Positions 1-19,445 of a DNA stretch of 20,202 nucleotides are shown here, piece by piece. Under the pieces are notes generated by a model. The model saw nothing but the letters and a program-made list of their open reading frames with translations. It had not been told where the DNA came from and ran no database searches. The DNA lies in IMG/VR virus record IMGVR_UViG_3300045996_000628, positions 1-20,202 of that record. One strand, 5' to 3'. How positions within the stretch are numbered: position 1 is the first letter of the stretch; every line of letters starts with the position of its first letter. The position numbers and the translations under genes are program-made. This stretch comes from a virus.

Positions 1-122
1 GCGATGTCCGCGATCAGCACACCTGCGTACGTGCCGACGAATGCCAGGGCAGCGTTTACAGCCTTGTTCGCCGTCTCCGCAGCACCCTTCACCTCGGGAT
101 GAGAGATCTCGAAGTTGCTCAT
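1..122 (-). CDS. Small hypothetical protein, cut by the window edge (N-terminus only)
   Basis: About 40 N-terminal codons are visible, starting MSNFEISHPEV and running into an alanine/valine-rich stretch (AALAFVGTYAGVLIADI) that could be a membrane or buried amphipathic helix. The ATG is preceded by GGAGG three bases upstream, a strong ribosome-binding site. The gene lies 33 bases downstream of the DUF1353-type gene, so it is probably the last or next gene of the lysis operon. I do not recognise the family. A small membrane protein is possible, but the sequence ends before this can be judged. Confidence 0.7.
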   Translation of the reverse strand, partial: MSNFEISHPEVKGAAETANKAVNAALAFVGTYAGVLIADI

Positions 123-155: not shown

Positions 156-668
156 TCAGGTCTTTTGCGCGTCGGCCTTCGCCCGGTCAGGAACGAACTT
201 GCTGGCCAACCAAAGTATCGTCAGCCAAACCTGAACCACCAAGCTCGGGATCAAGACAACTGGACTCGCCAGTATCAAGACCAGCAGCACCTGAGGCAAG
301 GTCTTCAGACTACCAGCTCGACGATGCTTGTTGCCGATGGCGCCGAGGCGCACGCCGGCCCACATGATCCAGCGTCGAGGGAACGTGACCCCCGACACCT
401 TCATCGCCTCTCGAAACGTCTTGTCGACGTCGTTCGAGGAGATCGTGGGGATCATGTCTGTGATCAACCAATCGTGGAGAACGGCGGACTTGGAGTACAG
501 CCCGGTCCTAGGGTACAACCAGGCCGTAGCCCTCGGAACCGAGGCGAAGTCCGTCACGTAGCCCACCGGGACTCGGTGTTCGACCTGGTCGGTCTTGAAG
601 ATCAGATCGCGAGTCAGTTCCCAGCGTACATCGTCGATCTCGTCGACCCCGAGCTTCGTGACGAACAT
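156..668 (-). CDS. DUF1353-type protein with hydrophobic C-terminal tail
   Basis: This 170-aa protein has the two signature blocks I associate with the phage and prophage family DUF1353: VTDFASVP at residues 38-45 and SAVLHDWLI at 61-69, followed by a helix with FREAM and FPRRWIMWAGVR. The family's biochemical function is not established as far as I know. Residues 124-157 are an almost uninterrupted hydrophobic segment with two prolines, long enough for one or two membrane spans, followed by a short charged end. The start ATG is one base after the endolysin stop (TGA-C-ATG), implying translational coupling. Position right after the endolysin suggests a lysis-related or envelope-associated role, but that is inference. 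Family assignment is by motif memory only. Confidence 0.8.
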   Translation of the reverse strand: MFVTKLGVDEIDDVRWELTRDLIFKTDQVEHRVPVGYVTDFASVPRATAWLYPRTGLYSKSAVLHDWLITDMIPTISSNDVDKTFREAMKVSGVTFPRRWIMWAGVRLGAIGNKHRRAGSLKTLPQVLLVLILASPVVLIPSLVVQVWLTILWLASKFVPDRAKADAQKT

Positions 669-669
669 G

Positions 670-930
670 TCATCGTCCTACGACATCGTCCGGGGGCTCT
701 CCGCCCAGAGCGAACGGGATGGAGTCGACGTCTGCCTGACGCCACTGCTCCGGAGAGCCGAGACGCCTTGCAGCCATGCGGAACACCACGCCGTTGGGCA
801 TGTAGGCACGAACCGCACCGCCCGGAAGCTCGGGGTCGAGCTTGACCATGAACACCAGGTCGCCCCAGCGGTAGGTCTTGCCAGGCACCAGGGCCGTGTT
901 GTCTCCGTGCACCAACAGAACGTTGGCCAT
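670..930 (-). CDS. Putative internal in-frame product: separate endolysin C-terminal domain
   Basis: Within the endolysin frame, codon 194 is an ATG at position 930, preceded by GAGGAGG with an 8-base spacer, which is an optimal initiation signal. Translation from here would give an 86-aa protein starting MANVLLVHGDN, corresponding exactly to the region after the acidic linker. Internal starts that make free wall-binding domains, which then assemble with the full enzyme, are known for some endolysins such as Lys170 of an Enterococcus phage and CTP1L and CD27L of clostridial phages. The signal is seen; its use is inferred. The GAGGAGG also encodes Glu-Glu in the linker, so it may be coincidental. 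Confidence 0.45.
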   Translation of the reverse strand: MANVLLVHGDNTALVPGKTYRWGDLVFMVKLDPELPGGAVRAYMPNGVVFRMAARRLGSPEQWRQADVDSIPFALGGEPPDDVVGR

Positions 931-1509
931 ATCGTCGTCCTCCTCAGGAACGTCCAACCCCGCGATCACTCGAGCGCGAGGGATGATCTCATCAATCAGT
1001 TGGCGGATTCGAACATCACCCGGGCACACCTTGCCGTACGCGCTGGACCACAGCTCGCCGTCGGATACCCTACCCCCGTAAGCCATACCCTCGAAGTTAC
1101 CGTTGCACCCCTGACGGTGGTACGCGATACCTCGGGATCCTGGCTTCGAGTCAGGACACAGCACCAGCGGGATCGAGTGCGTGTGGTAGGCCCAGGCACA
1201 AATCTTGGCAATCGCCTCGATCTGCTGAGGCGTGAACGCCGGAACGTTCGAGCCCGACCACGCACCGAACGCAGGGCCATGGTCCTCGTTCTCGATCGCG
1301 ATGACCCGGTGGTTCCCGTCGAGGTTGGCGGCGCTCCGGTACTTGGTGTCCCGGGACTGGATGATCTGCCCATTCGCCTTCGTCGAGAAGTGCGCAGCCG
1401 CAGCCGGCGCATACCCCACAATGGTGTGGACGCAGACGATGTCGTGCCGGGTCATGAGGGTTTGCGAGGACTGCTCGCCAGCCCACACAGCCTCAGACAG
1501 CCTGGCCAT
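670..1509 (-). CDS. Endolysin: zinc N-acetylmuramoyl-L-alanine amidase (Amidase_2/PGRP-like)
   Basis: This 279-aa endolysin should cleave the bond between N-acetylmuramic acid and L-alanine in peptidoglycan. The catalytic domain covers about residues 15-170. The expected zinc ligands are visible: H28 in VCVHTIVG, H131 in IAYHRQGC and C162 in GKVCPGD. Acidic residues in IAIENEDHG (73-76) sit where this fold has its active-site strand. An acidic linker (PEEDDD, 188-193) leads to an 86-residue C-terminal region (194-279) that matches no LysM or other wall-binding repeat I recognise but is placed where a cell-wall-binding domain would be. An AAAGGATC Shine-Dalgarno precedes the ATG. The gene follows the collagen-like membrane protein by 18 bases. 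The C-terminal region has its own ribosome-binding site and ATG at 930. Confidence 0.93.
   Translation of the reverse strand: MARLSEAVWAGEQSSQTLMTRHDIVCVHTIVGYAPAAAAHFSTKANGQIIQSRDTKYRSAANLDGNHRVIAIENEDHGPAFGAWSGSNVPAFTPQQIEAIAKICAWAYHTHSIPLVLCPDSKPGSRGIAYHRQGCNGNFEGMAYGGRVSDGELWSSAYGKVCPGDVRIRQLIDEIIPRARVIAGLDVPEEDDDMANVLLVHGDNTALVPGKTYRWGDLVFMVKLDPELPGGAVRAYMPNGVVFRMAARRLGSPEQWRQADVDSIPFALGGEPPDDVVGR
939..945 (-). promoter_or_regulatory. Internal ribosome-binding site inside the endolysin gene
   Basis: On the minus strand the bases read GAGGAGG, followed after eight bases by ATG at 930, in frame with the endolysin. It is a closer match to the anti-Shine-Dalgarno than the site at the endolysin's own start (AAAGGATC). 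Confidence 0.5.
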
Positions 1510-1527
1510 TCTTGATCCTTTCGGTTG

Positions 1528-2355
1528 TTATCCCTGAGTGCAAACAACTACGGTTTCCGACTCGCCGGGCAAGAGCCCCGTCAAGAAGGTTCGTTGAGAC
1601 TGCACTGGGAAGTCGGGAGGGCACGAAGGCCCAGGGACTCCAGGGACACCCGGATCACCAGGCGGACCCTTGATGTTAGCGATGAACACCCACGTGTCGA
1701 CGTCCGTCGTGTACTTCACGAAGAAGTCCCCGTCGTCTTCGACCAACAGGTCATGAATCCCACGACCGTCGGCTCCACGGCACTGCAGGGGCTCTTCGAG
1801 GCAGGCTGGAGACTGCCCTGGATCACCCTCGGCGCCTTCCGGGCCTCCAGGACCGCGACAGCCGGGCTCAACTGGCTCGCAGGGGTCACCAGGCTCCCCG
1901 TCCTCTCCTGGGCTCCCAGCGTCGCCCTCAGGCCCCTTAAATTGTGGATCATCCTCGATCCGGTCGTACAAGATGGCCGCAGCGGCTGCAGCGAGTGCGT
2001 CGTCCGCACTGATGCTGCCTCCCGGGTCGGGAATCGGAATCTGAGGAAGTCCTCGTTCCTCGAGCCGCTCATTCGCGGCTTCCAAGGACTCGATACCCGC
2101 TTGGGTGATCGCTGTTTGTGCGGCGTTCTCCGAAATTCGCCAGGTGTTCCAGGCCGAGAAAGCCACGGCCAGAATCGCCACCAACATACTGATGGCGATC
2201 CCGATCTTAGCGTTCCTCGTAGCTTTGATATCCACGCGTTCGACGTGGGCCTTGGTGGGTACATGCTGGCGAACCTGGTCTTCGACTCGGCTTGCCGCCT
2301 CGTCCAGCCGCTCCAGAGCCTCAGCCGAGCCCCCGCGCTCGTCGGAGCTGCTCAT
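1528..2355 (-). CDS. Membrane-anchored collagen-like protein in the lysis cassette
   Basis: This 275-aa protein has a charged helical N-terminus (1-48), one clear transmembrane segment (about 51-69, IGIAISMLVAILAVAFSAW), a helical stalk (75-105), and a region rich in Gly-X-Y triplets: GPEGDAGSPGEDGEPGDP at 141-158, a second block at 168-180 and a third, GPPGDPGVPGVPGP, at 230-243. A small globular-looking insert (about 193-229) separates the second and third blocks. Six cysteines (159, 166, 185, 192, 245, 272) all lie beyond the membrane segment, suggesting disulfides outside the cytoplasm. The start lies inside the end of the coiled-coil holin-like gene (35-base overlap) with GGAGATA upstream. 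Collagen-like repeats are common in phage tail fibres; a transmembrane version beside the endolysin is less usual. Function unknown; lysis role is inferred from position. Confidence 0.85.
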   Translation of the reverse strand: MSSSDERGGSAEALERLDEAASRVEDQVRQHVPTKAHVERVDIKATRNAKIGIAISMLVAILAVAFSAWNTWRISENAAQTAITQAGIESLEAANERLEERGLPQIPIPDPGGSISADDALAAAAAAILYDRIEDDPQFKGPEGDAGSPGEDGEPGDPCEPVEPGCRGPGGPEGAEGDPGQSPACLEEPLQCRGADGRGIHDLLVEDDGDFFVKYTTDVDTWVFIANIKGPPGDPGVPGVPGPSCPPDFPVQSQRTFLTGLLPGESETVVVCTQG

Positions 2356-2713: not shown

Positions 2714-3150
2714 CTCTTGGTCCTCTCCACTTTGGCCGCTCTAAGCTCCAGGAGCAATCGGCGCAGTTCCTCTGGATTTTCTTCCTCTCCCTTACGACGC
2801 CGTTCCAGACGGATATCGTGCACGCTGTCCATCGCAAACGCCCCGAACAAAAACGCGTAGGACAGAACTCTCGCTCCGCCGGCTACTGCGATCACCGACG
2901 AGATTGTGAACAACCCGAGGGCTACCACGACGAGACCGGCAAGCCGGTAACCCTTCCTCTTGCCCATACCCACAAGAAGAAGAGTCCCGGCCACCACAAA
3001 TTCGACACCCAAAAGAACCTCGGCCCAGTAAGGCGCAGATCGTTCTAGGCTGATGATTGGGTAGATGGTCGAGTACAGGCCGAAGGTGATGATCAATAAG
3101 TATGTGGCCACCTTCGACCAATCCCCGAGGCACCTCTTGAAGAGAATCAT
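2710..3150 (-). CDS. Four-helix membrane protein, possible holin or antiholin
   Basis: The 146-aa protein has four predicted membrane segments at about residues 14-32, 43-62, 70-90 and 94-108, and a charged cytoplasmic-type tail (RRRKGEEENPEELRR) from 112. I chose the ATG at 3150, which overlaps the preceding stop as TGATG; a GTG one codon upstream is the alternative. It is followed by the one-helix holin-like gene with an ATGA overlap. Paired membrane proteins of this kind commonly sit between tail-tip and endolysin genes in actinophages and are often annotated as holins or simply membrane proteins. Which of the two genes makes the lethal lesion cannot be told from sequence. Confidence 0.8.
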   Translation of the reverse strand: MILFKRCLGDWSKVATYLLIITFGLYSTIYPIISLERSAPYWAEVLLGVEFVVAGTLLLVGMGKRKGYRLAGLVVVALGLFTISSVIAVAGGARVLSYAFLFGAFAMDSVHDIRLERRRKGEEENPEELRRLLLELRAAKVERTKR

Positions 3151-3974
3151 CACGACGCAGCCGCGTAGAGGACCGACATACTCGGGGCGTGACCATCGGT
3201 CAACACCGTGTTCGCAGCCGTCGATGAGAACGCGTGCAGCAAGATCACATCGTTCACTGCCAGCTCGACGAGGATGTTGTTCTGCACCTCAGTAATGTAC
3301 CCTGCTGCGTTACCCATCGGTTGGAACACGTCACCATGAGGAAGGGTCGATCCGTTACGGATCCACCGGGTTCCGCCTGCACCGGCCGAAGCCGCCCGAC
3401 TGACGTTCGATGTCAACCAGTAGACGCCGGCAGTCAAGATCGTGACGGTGTTGTTGGTCAGATTGACCGTCACACCTCGCGACTTCACAGTGGTCTGCCA
3501 GTCAACCACGGTTGCCGAGGTCCCGATGGACTGGGCAGTAGTGGTTTGGGTCAGCTTGCAGTACGGCGCCGCACCACCCGAGGACGCTTCCAAAGAAGCC
3601 ACCCGAGAGCCGAGCGCCGTGTTGCCCGTACTGACGTCTGTCGTCCTCGTCTCGACTACTGCGATGCGGGATCGCACGTCAGTGAGCTGGCTGGTCGCCG
3701 AGCCCGTGGTGACGTTGGCACCCGTACCTACGCCCGTACCAAGACGGTCAGACAACCGGACGTTGCCATGACCACCGTTGGTAGCGGTGTTCGTAGTGAG
3801 CGACTCGAGGGCCGTCAACCGAGAGTTCGCGTTGAACGCCTCAATCACGGCCATTCGAGTCTCGTGATCGATAACCCGAGTATCGAGATCCAATACGTTC
3901 GATCGGATCTTGTTGTACTCGGCTGCCGAGGCGATGTTGCCTGAGACAGCCAAAGCCATAGGCACAATAGCCAT
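3150..3974 (-). CDS. Minor tail protein, probable receptor-binding protein with C1q-like C-terminus
   Basis: This 274-aa protein is probably a trimeric tail-tip fibre. Residues 1-60 are helical and end in a coiled-coil-like stretch, followed by a Gly/Thr-rich linker (61-95), a second helical stretch (about 96-131), and a beta-rich C-terminal domain (138-274). That domain has the pattern of C1q/TNF-like jelly rolls: an ILTAGVYWLTSNVSRA strand pair, then a VQNNILVELAVNDVILLHAF block, and a hydrophobic end (SMSVLYAAAS). Such domains bind host surface glycans or proteins in other phages. The ATG at 3974 overlaps the stop of the tail hub gene as TAATG; an upstream in-frame ATG lies inside the hub gene and lacks this arrangement. 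It is the last virion gene before the membrane and lysis genes. Confidence 0.85.
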   Translation of the reverse strand: MAIVPMALAVSGNIASAAEYNKIRSNVLDLDTRVIDHETRMAVIEAFNANSRLTALESLTTNTATNGGHGNVRLSDRLGTGVGTGANVTTGSATSQLTDVRSRIAVVETRTTDVSTGNTALGSRVASLEASSGGAAPYCKLTQTTTAQSIGTSATVVDWQTTVKSRGVTVNLTNNTVTILTAGVYWLTSNVSRAASAGAGGTRWIRNGSTLPHGDVFQPMGNAAGYITEVQNNILVELAVNDVILLHAFSSTAANTVLTDGHAPSMSVLYAAAS

Positions 3975-6556
3975 TATGCACTCCAGATGAAGCTCGTGTC
4001 CCACAGACCATACTGCGGGCTGTCCCAGTATCCGATCAATGCCGGCTTGATCAGCTCAACCGATAGCGTATCTTGCAGACCACCGGTCTGGGAGAAGGTA
4101 CGTGTGATCCCGTAGATCTGGAGCTTCATTTCTTCGCCCAAACCGTCCGGATCCTGCAGCCGCACCGTGTCTCCAAGCTGCCGGCGAGGATCGCCCGCCA
4201 CCTGGATGTTCTCCGTCGTGGGGATGGGCTGGATCGTTCGTGGCAGAAGAGAGCTGAGCAACGTCGACCCTACAATCTCGGGTTGCCACTGCACCCAATC
4301 TCCCGAAAGAGGGAGGTTGCGCTCGCCGTACTTCAGGACGCTCGCACGATCGAACACGGTCTGAATCGCGTTGGGCTGCGGAGTCATGAGTGTACCCATG
4401 ATCCGCAACGCCGGAGAACCATCCTCGTTTACACCAGTGCCAAACCGGGCGGGGTATTCGTACCCATTCCAGACACGGATCACCAGATTACCGTCAACAT
4501 CGAGACGTGCGTTGACATCGACCCCGCTGACAAAGTCGCTTCGCTCGGTCCACAGGCCGCCGATCAGCCACTGGACGACGTAAGCGCCATTGATAAGCGT
4601 TTCCTTATCGTCCCAGTTCGGCGAAGCGCCCGCCACGGTGTCTCGACGATCCATCTTCCAAGCCGTGACCTGAGAGATGTCGTCTCGGTAGATCGTGAAC
4701 TGAACAAATCCACCTTCGGGGTTCGGAGGAATGTAGAACTCGTCGATGTTCGTAGCTTCGAACACCACATCGCGATCAGCCGTCACCATCTTAGAGTCGG
4801 CCGTCAACACGTTTCGAATCGAGTCAAGCGAGTTCGTGATTTGAAGATCCGAAGCGTTGTCAAGGTTGATCGTCCCGGTGATCGTATTCTGCAGTTCGAG
4901 CAAGGTGTTACGGTTCCAGAATCGGAACACACCCTTCTCATCCCAGAATGCGGCACCCAACTCGGCAGCAGCTACGTCAGTGATAGCCTGCCACGCATCC
5001 TCGTACATCTCGACCGGGATGTTTGTCAAACGGTTGAGACCTCGGTCCAAGACGGCAGCGTAGCGAGCCTGTCGGGTACCATCGGTTCGAATCCACGACT
5101 CCACGGGAGTATCCCCAAACCCCGTGTTCCGATACGACCAATAGATGTCGCCCATGCTGCCCTTTCGACGCAGCACAACCAAGCCCTTCAGCGTGTCGTA
5201 GTTGGCGCCTCCCCCAACCCAGTTATCCCAGATGTCCCAGTTGGTGTCGTAACCGTCGGTGGGAGTGACCTTAACTCCGTTCAAGAACAGATTAAAGATC
5301 ACGCTGTCGGCTTCATCTTGCTTGATCACATCAACCTTGATGTGGTCAGTACCCGTTGGCAAGGGGTACCACGGGGTAACCGCCCCGCTGTCCGTCACCC
5401 AGTTCCGAGCCTCGAGACGAATCGATCCGGTGTGCACAACCACCTTGATCCGGGACTCATAACCCGTGTGAATCTCGAGAGGGGTCCAGTTGGTCGTAGT
5501 CCACGGGTAAGAGACGTCGTACCCGCTGGCAGGATCAACCACGTTGCTGATCGTGAACCCGAAGTAGTGCGTGTTGTCGTATTCGAAGTTGTGACGGTCC
5601 TTAGCCCAGTACCGGTTTTCGTTAGCCGAGTAGGGCCCATCGGGCGCTTCACCGGAAGCGTCGCCGCGAACTCCGTTGAAGGAGTAAGGCCGACGGCTGG
5701 TCTCGGTAGCCACGCTCGGGTGGAGGGCCCCTGTCTTCGACATGATCGGCTTACCTACGGTCTCCGTCTTCGGGAAACCCTGCGACCGATTGTTGTCAAG
5801 CTGACCGATGTTCGGTAGGTACGATCCGTTACCCGAGATCCAGAGCTGTGAACCGGGGTCTGCGGCCAACCACTCGGGGTCGTTGACGTAAGGGTACTTC
5901 TCACGATCGGTCTGCCAGCGGTACCCGGTCGGCGACGTGTTGCCGTGGCGCAGGCAGTGGTCGATGACCCAGTGCGACTCGCACAACTGAGCCAAAGTCC
6001 AACCTCGGTCCATGTGATATTTGCTGATGGCCCACTTCGGGAAAGTCACCGGGACACGCAGCTCTTCCGCTCGGTCCAGAGCGGTGATCGTGACCGCGTT
6101 ACCGCCTCGGTGTGGGGTAATCGAGCGGATTCGACCGATGAACTGGTCGTACCAGATGACCCCGTAGATCGTCTCGACTCCGAGCGCGTACTTGATCTCG
6201 CACCCGATCGGATCCTTGTTGTACAAGGGACTCAAACCGTTGTAAGGCGAGAACACCGAAGCGAAGTTCATCAGAGAGCCGTTCGAGTGCAAATACTGCC
6301 CCGACACATCGAACTCCAATGAAGCTGCGGCAGAGCCCTCAATCAGCATCACCTCAGGCGGAGCCGAGCCGGCCAAGGCCCGGTCCGTCTTGATGGAGTC
6401 CGCCCCTTCAGAAAGGTCGCAGATCGTCATTCCAGAGAATGAACCGTTGCGGTTCCAGTCGACAAGAATGCGGGCGTAGATCGTGCGCTCGGACTCGGCC
6501 AGCGCGGCTTCAACAGCCGCATCGACCGTCGAGCCAAGACCGCTCGTCTGCATCAT
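3974..6556 (-). CDS. Tail hub/tail-associated minor tail protein with lectin-like insertion
   Basis: At 860 aa and directly after the Dit-like gene, this is the tail hub (Tal/gp27-like) protein that closes the tail tip and holds receptor-binding proteins. The N-terminal part (about 25-200) contains ARILVDWNRNG and the beta-rich hub-like segment with YDQFIGRIRSITP. The C-terminal third (500-860) continues the hub core, with DAWQAITDVAAAELGAAFWDE and, near the end, GDTVRLQDPDG. Between them, residues about 325-478 look like a concanavalin/LamG-type beta sandwich (HYFGFTISNVV, VFNLFLNGVKV-like strand, GDIYWSYRNT). The start is ATGATG, with the first ATG overlapping the Dit stop (ATGA); GGAGG lies one base before it, so the second ATG at 6553 may be the true start. 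Confidence 0.88.
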   Translation of the reverse strand: MMQTSGLGSTVDAAVEAALAESERTIYARILVDWNRNGSFSGMTICDLSEGADSIKTDRALAGSAPPEVMLIEGSAAASLEFDVSGQYLHSNGSLMNFASVFSPYNGLSPLYNKDPIGCEIKYALGVETIYGVIWYDQFIGRIRSITPHRGGNAVTITALDRAEELRVPVTFPKWAISKYHMDRGWTLAQLCESHWVIDHCLRHGNTSPTGYRWQTDREKYPYVNDPEWLAADPGSQLWISGNGSYLPNIGQLDNNRSQGFPKTETVGKPIMSKTGALHPSVATETSRRPYSFNGVRGDASGEAPDGPYSANENRYWAKDRHNFEYDNTHYFGFTISNVVDPASGYDVSYPWTTTNWTPLEIHTGYESRIKVVVHTGSIRLEARNWVTDSGAVTPWYPLPTGTDHIKVDVIKQDEADSVIFNLFLNGVKVTPTDGYDTNWDIWDNWVGGGANYDTLKGLVVLRRKGSMGDIYWSYRNTGFGDTPVESWIRTDGTRQARYAAVLDRGLNRLTNIPVEMYEDAWQAITDVAAAELGAAFWDEKGVFRFWNRNTLLELQNTITGTINLDNASDLQITNSLDSIRNVLTADSKMVTADRDVVFEATNIDEFYIPPNPEGGFVQFTIYRDDISQVTAWKMDRRDTVAGASPNWDDKETLINGAYVVQWLIGGLWTERSDFVSGVDVNARLDVDGNLVIRVWNGYEYPARFGTGVNEDGSPALRIMGTLMTPQPNAIQTVFDRASVLKYGERNLPLSGDWVQWQPEIVGSTLLSSLLPRTIQPIPTTENIQVAGDPRRQLGDTVRLQDPDGLGEEMKLQIYGITRTFSQTGGLQDTLSVELIKPALIGYWDSPQYGLWDTSFIWSA

Positions 6557-19373: not shown

Positions 19374-19445
19374 TGCCGCCGGCAGGGTTCGAACCTGCGT
19401 CCCCGGATTAAGAGTCCGGTGCTACGCCTACTCAGCTACGGGGGC
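19374..19445 (-). tRNA. tRNA-Lys(CUU)
   Basis: A 72-base cloverleaf: acceptor GCCCCCG with CGGCGGC (one C-C mismatch at the fourth pair), D-arm GCT/AGC with GG in the loop, anticodon stem CCGGA/TCCGG with loop CTCTTAA (anticodon CTT), T-arm GCAGG/CCTGC with TTCGAAC, and discriminator A. CCA is not encoded. Confidence 0.93.

Follow-up and report, generated by a model that had tools for sequence, protein, structure and literature searches.

An internal start signal at the domain junction of an actinophage amidase endolysin gene and its conservation among homologues with different C-terminal modules

The endolysin gene and its internal start signal

The window, which here denotes the entire stretch of DNA analysed (20,202 nucleotides, a 20.2-kb virus record), carries on its minus strand an endolysin gene flanked by a DUF1353 gene and genes for proteins that are likely of the tail-fibre type (Table 1). 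The full-length protein, with a computed mass of 30.2 kDa, consists of a T7-lysozyme/PGRP-type zinc amidase (residues ~1–182), a short acidic linker (~183–193) and a C-terminal module (194–279). Amidase_2 (PF01510) is its only Pfam match (E 9e-8), and a search of NCBIfam with the whole endolysin gave no match. In an AlphaFold2 model of the full-length protein built with 17 homologues, the amidase closes with a helix at 165–182 and the C-terminal part is separate, which places Met194 where the linker ends. Foldseek groups the amidase model with LysC (6ssc/6srt), AmiA (4knl) and T7 lysozyme (1lba); judging from this fold, H28, H131 and C162, which are invariant in the 16 aligned homologues, would be the zinc ligands.

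Table 1. Positions of the endolysin gene, its start signals and neighbouring genes in the window
Feature	Position	Strand	Basis or remark
Endolysin, 279 aa	1509 (ATG)..670 (TGA)	-	Amidase_2, linker and C-terminal module
Region with the gene's own Shine-Dalgarno (SD), CGAAAGGATCAAGA before the ATG at 1509	1510..1527	-	AAAGGA start
Internal SD, GAGGAGG	945-939	-	Sequence; counterpart at the same junction in homologues
8-nt spacer ACGACGAT between GAGGAGG and the internal ATG		-	
Internal ATG, codon 194 (Met194), in frame	930-928	-	Sequence
Predicted separate C-terminal protein MANVLLVHGDNTALVPGKTYRWGDLVFMV..., 86 aa, 9.4 kDa	670..930	-	Small alpha/beta domain
DUF1353 gene, directly downstream of the endolysin	156-668	-	PF07087, E 1e-26
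Truncated small protein with hydrophobic stretch MSNFEISHPEVKGAAETANKAVNAALAFVGTYAGVLIADI, after the DUF1353 gene	1-122	-	Possibly holin
Collagen-repeat protein, upstream of the endolysin	1528-2355	-	Likely tail-fibre type
Protein with BclA_C match, upstream of the endolysin	3150-4004	-	PF18573, 38.6 bits (cut-off 38); likely tail-fibre type
tRNA gene	19374-19445	-	Rfam RF00005, 63.4 bits

An earlier reading made from the sequence only had noticed GAGGAGG, an 8-base spacer and an in-frame ATG at the junction between the amidase and the C-terminal region, and both the sequence and the end of the amidase domain in the AlphaFold2 model bear this out. The same reading had held the internal signal to be better than the gene's own, which stands as far as pairing energy is concerned (-11.5 kcal/mol for the internal SD duplex vs -9.6 kcal/mol for the AAAGGA start) but not for accessibility, given that the internal site is partly paired and slightly less open (unpaired fraction 0.47 vs 0.61). 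In the window alone, synonymous shuffling with the locus's own codon usage produces an equally strong site in 40% of trials (p = 0.40, not significant); the signal thus proves little by itself, since acidic codons readily give rise to such a motif.

The C-terminal module (residues 194–279) has no match in Pfam, PHROGs or PDB sequences. Modelled alone, it is predicted by AlphaFold2 to be a small alpha/beta domain with a pLDDT of 85 (five sequences; of the five models, the best alone was confident), for which Foldseek found no significant match in the PDB or BFVD. No wall-binding family could be assigned by any of these comparisons, in agreement with the initial impression that the region belongs to none that is known. 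The module model shows a weak and insignificant Foldseek match (E 1.5, TM 0.38) to EccB1, whose repeat is similar to PlyCB, the octamer-forming subunit with which PlyC binds the wall (PMC4769845); an EccB/PlyCB-like identity of the module was rejected on this E value and on an hhalign probability below 1%.

The junction signal among homologues

Homologues were gathered by the amidase domain in successive searches that returned 7, 14, 5 and 70 loci, some of them located in Nocardioides genomes. One of the six peptide patterns of the first search (7 loci) spanned EEDDDMAN and all later patterns lay inside the amidase; with patterns so confined, the homologue set was not selected for the signal. 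A junction was scored when an in-frame ATG or GTG preceded by an SD of -7 kcal/mol or lower fell no more than 25 codons past the end of the amidase. By this rule, a strong SD with an in-frame start codon is present at the junction in 52 of 70 non-redundant homologues, 3–24 codons past the amidase. The same rule applied out of frame to these 70 finds 2 (+1) and 1 (+2), other 26-codon blocks of the amidase contribute 0–3 of 70, C-terminal parts 5–6, and control blocks in neighbouring genes 176 of 3238 (5.4%). A relaxed rule, which allows TTG and 30 codons, gives 58 in frame vs 3 and 3 out of frame. In a held-out set of 19 later loci, 12 carry the signal in frame (two of them, L161 and L163, look like one gene) and 0 and 0 out of frame. 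These counts are of related sequences rather than independent events; at 70% identity, 29 of the 40 amidase clusters include a strong site, and many catalytic domains merge into large single-linkage clusters at 50–60% identity. There are also homologues in which the signal is weak: the nearest whole-gene relative of the window, L002, has only a weak SD (AAAGGAAG, -5.6), and L009 and L045 retain the Met with a weak SD.

The signal could in principle be a by-product of coding, in that selection on the protein favours an acidic, flexible linker whose GAG/GAC codons, in a GC-rich genome, mimic an SD. Such an origin accords with the frequent reproduction of the window's signal by synonymous shuffling, as well as with chance alone giving a signal in about a third of the homologues. 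Shuffling of all junctions, however, expects 22.5 ± 3.0 sites, with a maximum of 32 in 1000 trials, against the 52 observed, so that the sequence-only caveat that the signal also encodes the acidic linker holds for the window taken alone but not for the homologue family. Moreover, where starts are preceded by at least three acidic residues, an SD accompanies 25 of 30 at junctions (83%) but only 14 of 71 in controls (20%; p 2.4e-9). The linkers ahead of the start vary widely (PEEDDD, KEEEGI, LEEIP, PKENPL, QEDD, PPEDP, VNGGND, GGGVRN), and some contain no Glu at all (NGGND-V) with SD and start still present. The AGGAGG-like core, which falls mostly in two codon registers (36 and 15 of 52), is retained by linkers with zero or one acidic residue, for example in L008 (GGAGGGAACGAC-GTG) and L031. 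In addition, Ala, Ser, Thr or Pro directly follows the internal start in 34 of 52 cases vs 174 of 596 for other in-frame ATG/GTG codons (p 3e-7), a bias as expected of true protein N-termini and not of a coding by-product.

Thus, the signal exceeds chance overwhelmingly for the family, though not for the window alone. The alignment of homologues had been named beforehand as a check, with conserved Glu-Glu and drifting codons that erase the signal as the outcome speaking against an internal start; what is found is the opposite, in that Glu-Glu changes while SD and start are kept beyond coding need. Because the homologues keep it in this way (52 of 70, and 12 of 19 held out), the proposal that the internal start yields the C-terminal domain as a separate, predicted protein is strongly supported.

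Exchange of C-terminal modules

The C-terminal parts of the homologues fall into 49 sequence clusters (BLASTP E 1e-3), and in 158 pairs the amidases are at least 60% identical, the C-terminal parts are unrelated and a strong site is present in both. By sequence comparison, dozens of related soil-phage genes keep the junction start while the C-terminal domain has been swapped for an unrelated one. The window's own module, which shows no relation to the L009-type module in profile comparison, recurs behind the same amidase in L002 and L033, behind another catalytic domain, M15-peptidase-like by eye, in L088, and behind another amidase-like domain (by eye) in L090 and L227; in all five it begins at the same Met/Val, and the SD is strong except in L002.

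Homologues without a C-terminal module, or with PG_binding_1, mostly have no internal start. Among the PG_binding_1 amidases, L061, L062 and L078 lack a junction start, L079 has a weak one only, and L042 is an exception with a start at codon 29. Likewise, most relatives of the L088 enzyme that carry a C-terminal module have a junction start, whereas those with a 20–33-aa tail do not. It is about an even bet that the endolysin C-terminal modules of uncultivated actinophages, drawn from dozens of unrelated sequence families, move about as quasi-independent genes, each bringing its own start codon when it is placed behind a different catalytic domain. Almost all lysins of this kind would then be two-protein enzymes, with internal initiation as the fixed element of the design, dropped only where the module is absent or of the PG_binding_1 kind.

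Two individual loci deserve mention. The module behind the internal start in L048 (3595-4125) includes two hydrophobic, membrane-like segments and looks as though a holin-like protein had been joined to the amidase. In L215 (2001-3150), the in-frame continuation of an M15-like enzyme is a long, different domain of ~240 aa, which is likewise preceded by GGGAGG-TACCC-GTG.

A predicted two-protein enzyme and its relatives

In type II internal-start endolysins, the C-terminal domain that is made on its own joins the full enzyme in a complex (PMC9430671, PMC12203907). Lys170, LysIME-EF1, CTP1L, CD27L, CS74L and LysP7951, all from Firmicutes phages, belong here, with products and complexes demonstrated (PMC9430671, PMC4777826). 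The window's gene shares their layout, having a single catalytic domain followed by a C-terminal domain (Pfam, AlphaFold2, Foldseek), an in-frame SD and start codon at the junction, and a predicted free C-terminal product of similar size; it differs in coming from an actinophage, in a C-terminal module of no known family and in a product that is predicted from sequence. By analogy, initiation at codon 1 would give the full amidase endolysin, while ribosomes loading at the internal GAGGAGG would start at Met194 and make the 86-aa module alone; one cell would contain both, the module probably in excess. The free module would most likely join the full-length enzyme via its C-terminal domain, giving a complex of one or a few catalytic domains with several C-terminal, probably envelope-binding, modules and hence multiplied binding sites. 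Selection would keep the internal start at the domain junction while the linker changes and the downstream module is replaced. That one gene encodes two proteins which assemble in the type II manner is the reading we favour and regard as probable, co-assembly and wall binding of the free module being plausible parts of it. Such a complex would share its working principle with PlyC (PlyCA with a PlyCB octamer), an enzyme with many small wall-binding subunits. PlyCB, however, is a separate subunit and is not known to arise from a start inside the gene of the enzyme.

Among lysins of phages that infect Gram-positive bacteria, in-frame internal starts are common, with about half predicted to have one (PMC9430671). 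In mycobacteriophages they have been experimentally shown for Ms6 lysA (Lysin384/Lysin241) and LysPollywog (PMC3111421, PMC9430671), so actinophages already offer examples of the principle, and the suggestion that it might be new for them was too strong as stated. The window has in common with these an actinophage lysin gene with SD and in-frame internal start. They are, however, type I, with a short form that keeps a catalytic domain, whereas the window's start falls after the sole catalytic domain; a type I assignment was discarded, given that the amidase ends at ~182, the start lies at 194 and residues 194–279 match no family. No actinophage lysin yielding the C-terminal domain only (type II) was found in the literature surveyed, nor any account of a start that stays constant while modules are exchanged behind three catalytic domains; a type-II-like group in uncultivated actinophages thus appears undescribed in that literature. 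Cultured phages hardly ever carry this amidase clade, with 20 distant records among 50,697. The Streptomyces phages JPandJE, Ibantik and Darolandstone encode a related amidase with a C-terminus of the peptidoglycan-binding type (by eye). At the junction, JPandJE has one GTG candidate (-8.3), and a strong internal start is missing from Ibantik and Darolandstone. A candidate internal start is seen in LuckyBarnes (AAGGGAATCCTCGGC ATG, -9.5).

Among the alternatives, the one that survives best, though we consider it rather unlikely, accepts that the internal start is used but has the free module act alone, as a competitor or regulator of the enzyme, as a membrane or holin helper or in lysis timing, rather than as an enzyme subunit. 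Short forms of type I can work by themselves or alter lysis timing (PMC3111421, PMC9430671), many modules of the homologues look helical and do not resemble wall binders, and the L048 module has its membrane-like segments; on the other hand, the mixed complexes demonstrated to date all come from the single-catalytic-domain group (PMC9430671), to which the window's layout corresponds. Clearly less probable is that the start is a relic of fusion or a recombination joint: modules that once stood as genes of their own, each with an SD and a start, would have been fused in frame behind various catalytic domains, and the start would mark the point of exchange, perhaps with no role now. The 49 module clusters, the occurrence of one module with its start behind three catalytic domains, the start-like second residues and the resemblance of the L048 module to a former holin gene all suit this history. 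A relic would be expected to decay, yet the signal persists in distant relatives above the synonymous expectation, and a free-standing copy of the window's module was not found in viral_contigs. A fusion origin and present use of the start are compatible with each other. The coding by-product, improbable by a slightly wider measure, is largely refuted for the family by the shuffling, control and linker comparisons given above.

The usual picture of a lysin is that of a single chain. Should internal initiation prove to be the rule in these actinophages, a hidden second subunit would matter for gene counts, domain annotation and lysin expression, and many unannotated modules would become candidate envelope-binding or oligomerising domains for actinobacteria. 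The pairing of unrelated modules with one translation design also makes it possible to test whether small domains of very different kinds all act by multiplying on the enzyme.

The amidase frame itself is interrupted in several homologues. In L012 (3001-4887), an intein-like insert of ~340 aa splits the amidase at GKVC|CPGD, in the conserved zinc-cysteine region, and the frame resumes downstream. In L010 (3001-3330) and L008 (3001-3100), the frame is broken at the same point, DIVCVH|TIVG, which is possibly the target of a homing element; Rfam gave no intron match for this break, and L010 carries an insert of ~130 nt, with the 5' end of the gene present a second time (MARMPQAIWLGEHSPKTPIQRYDVVCVH stop).
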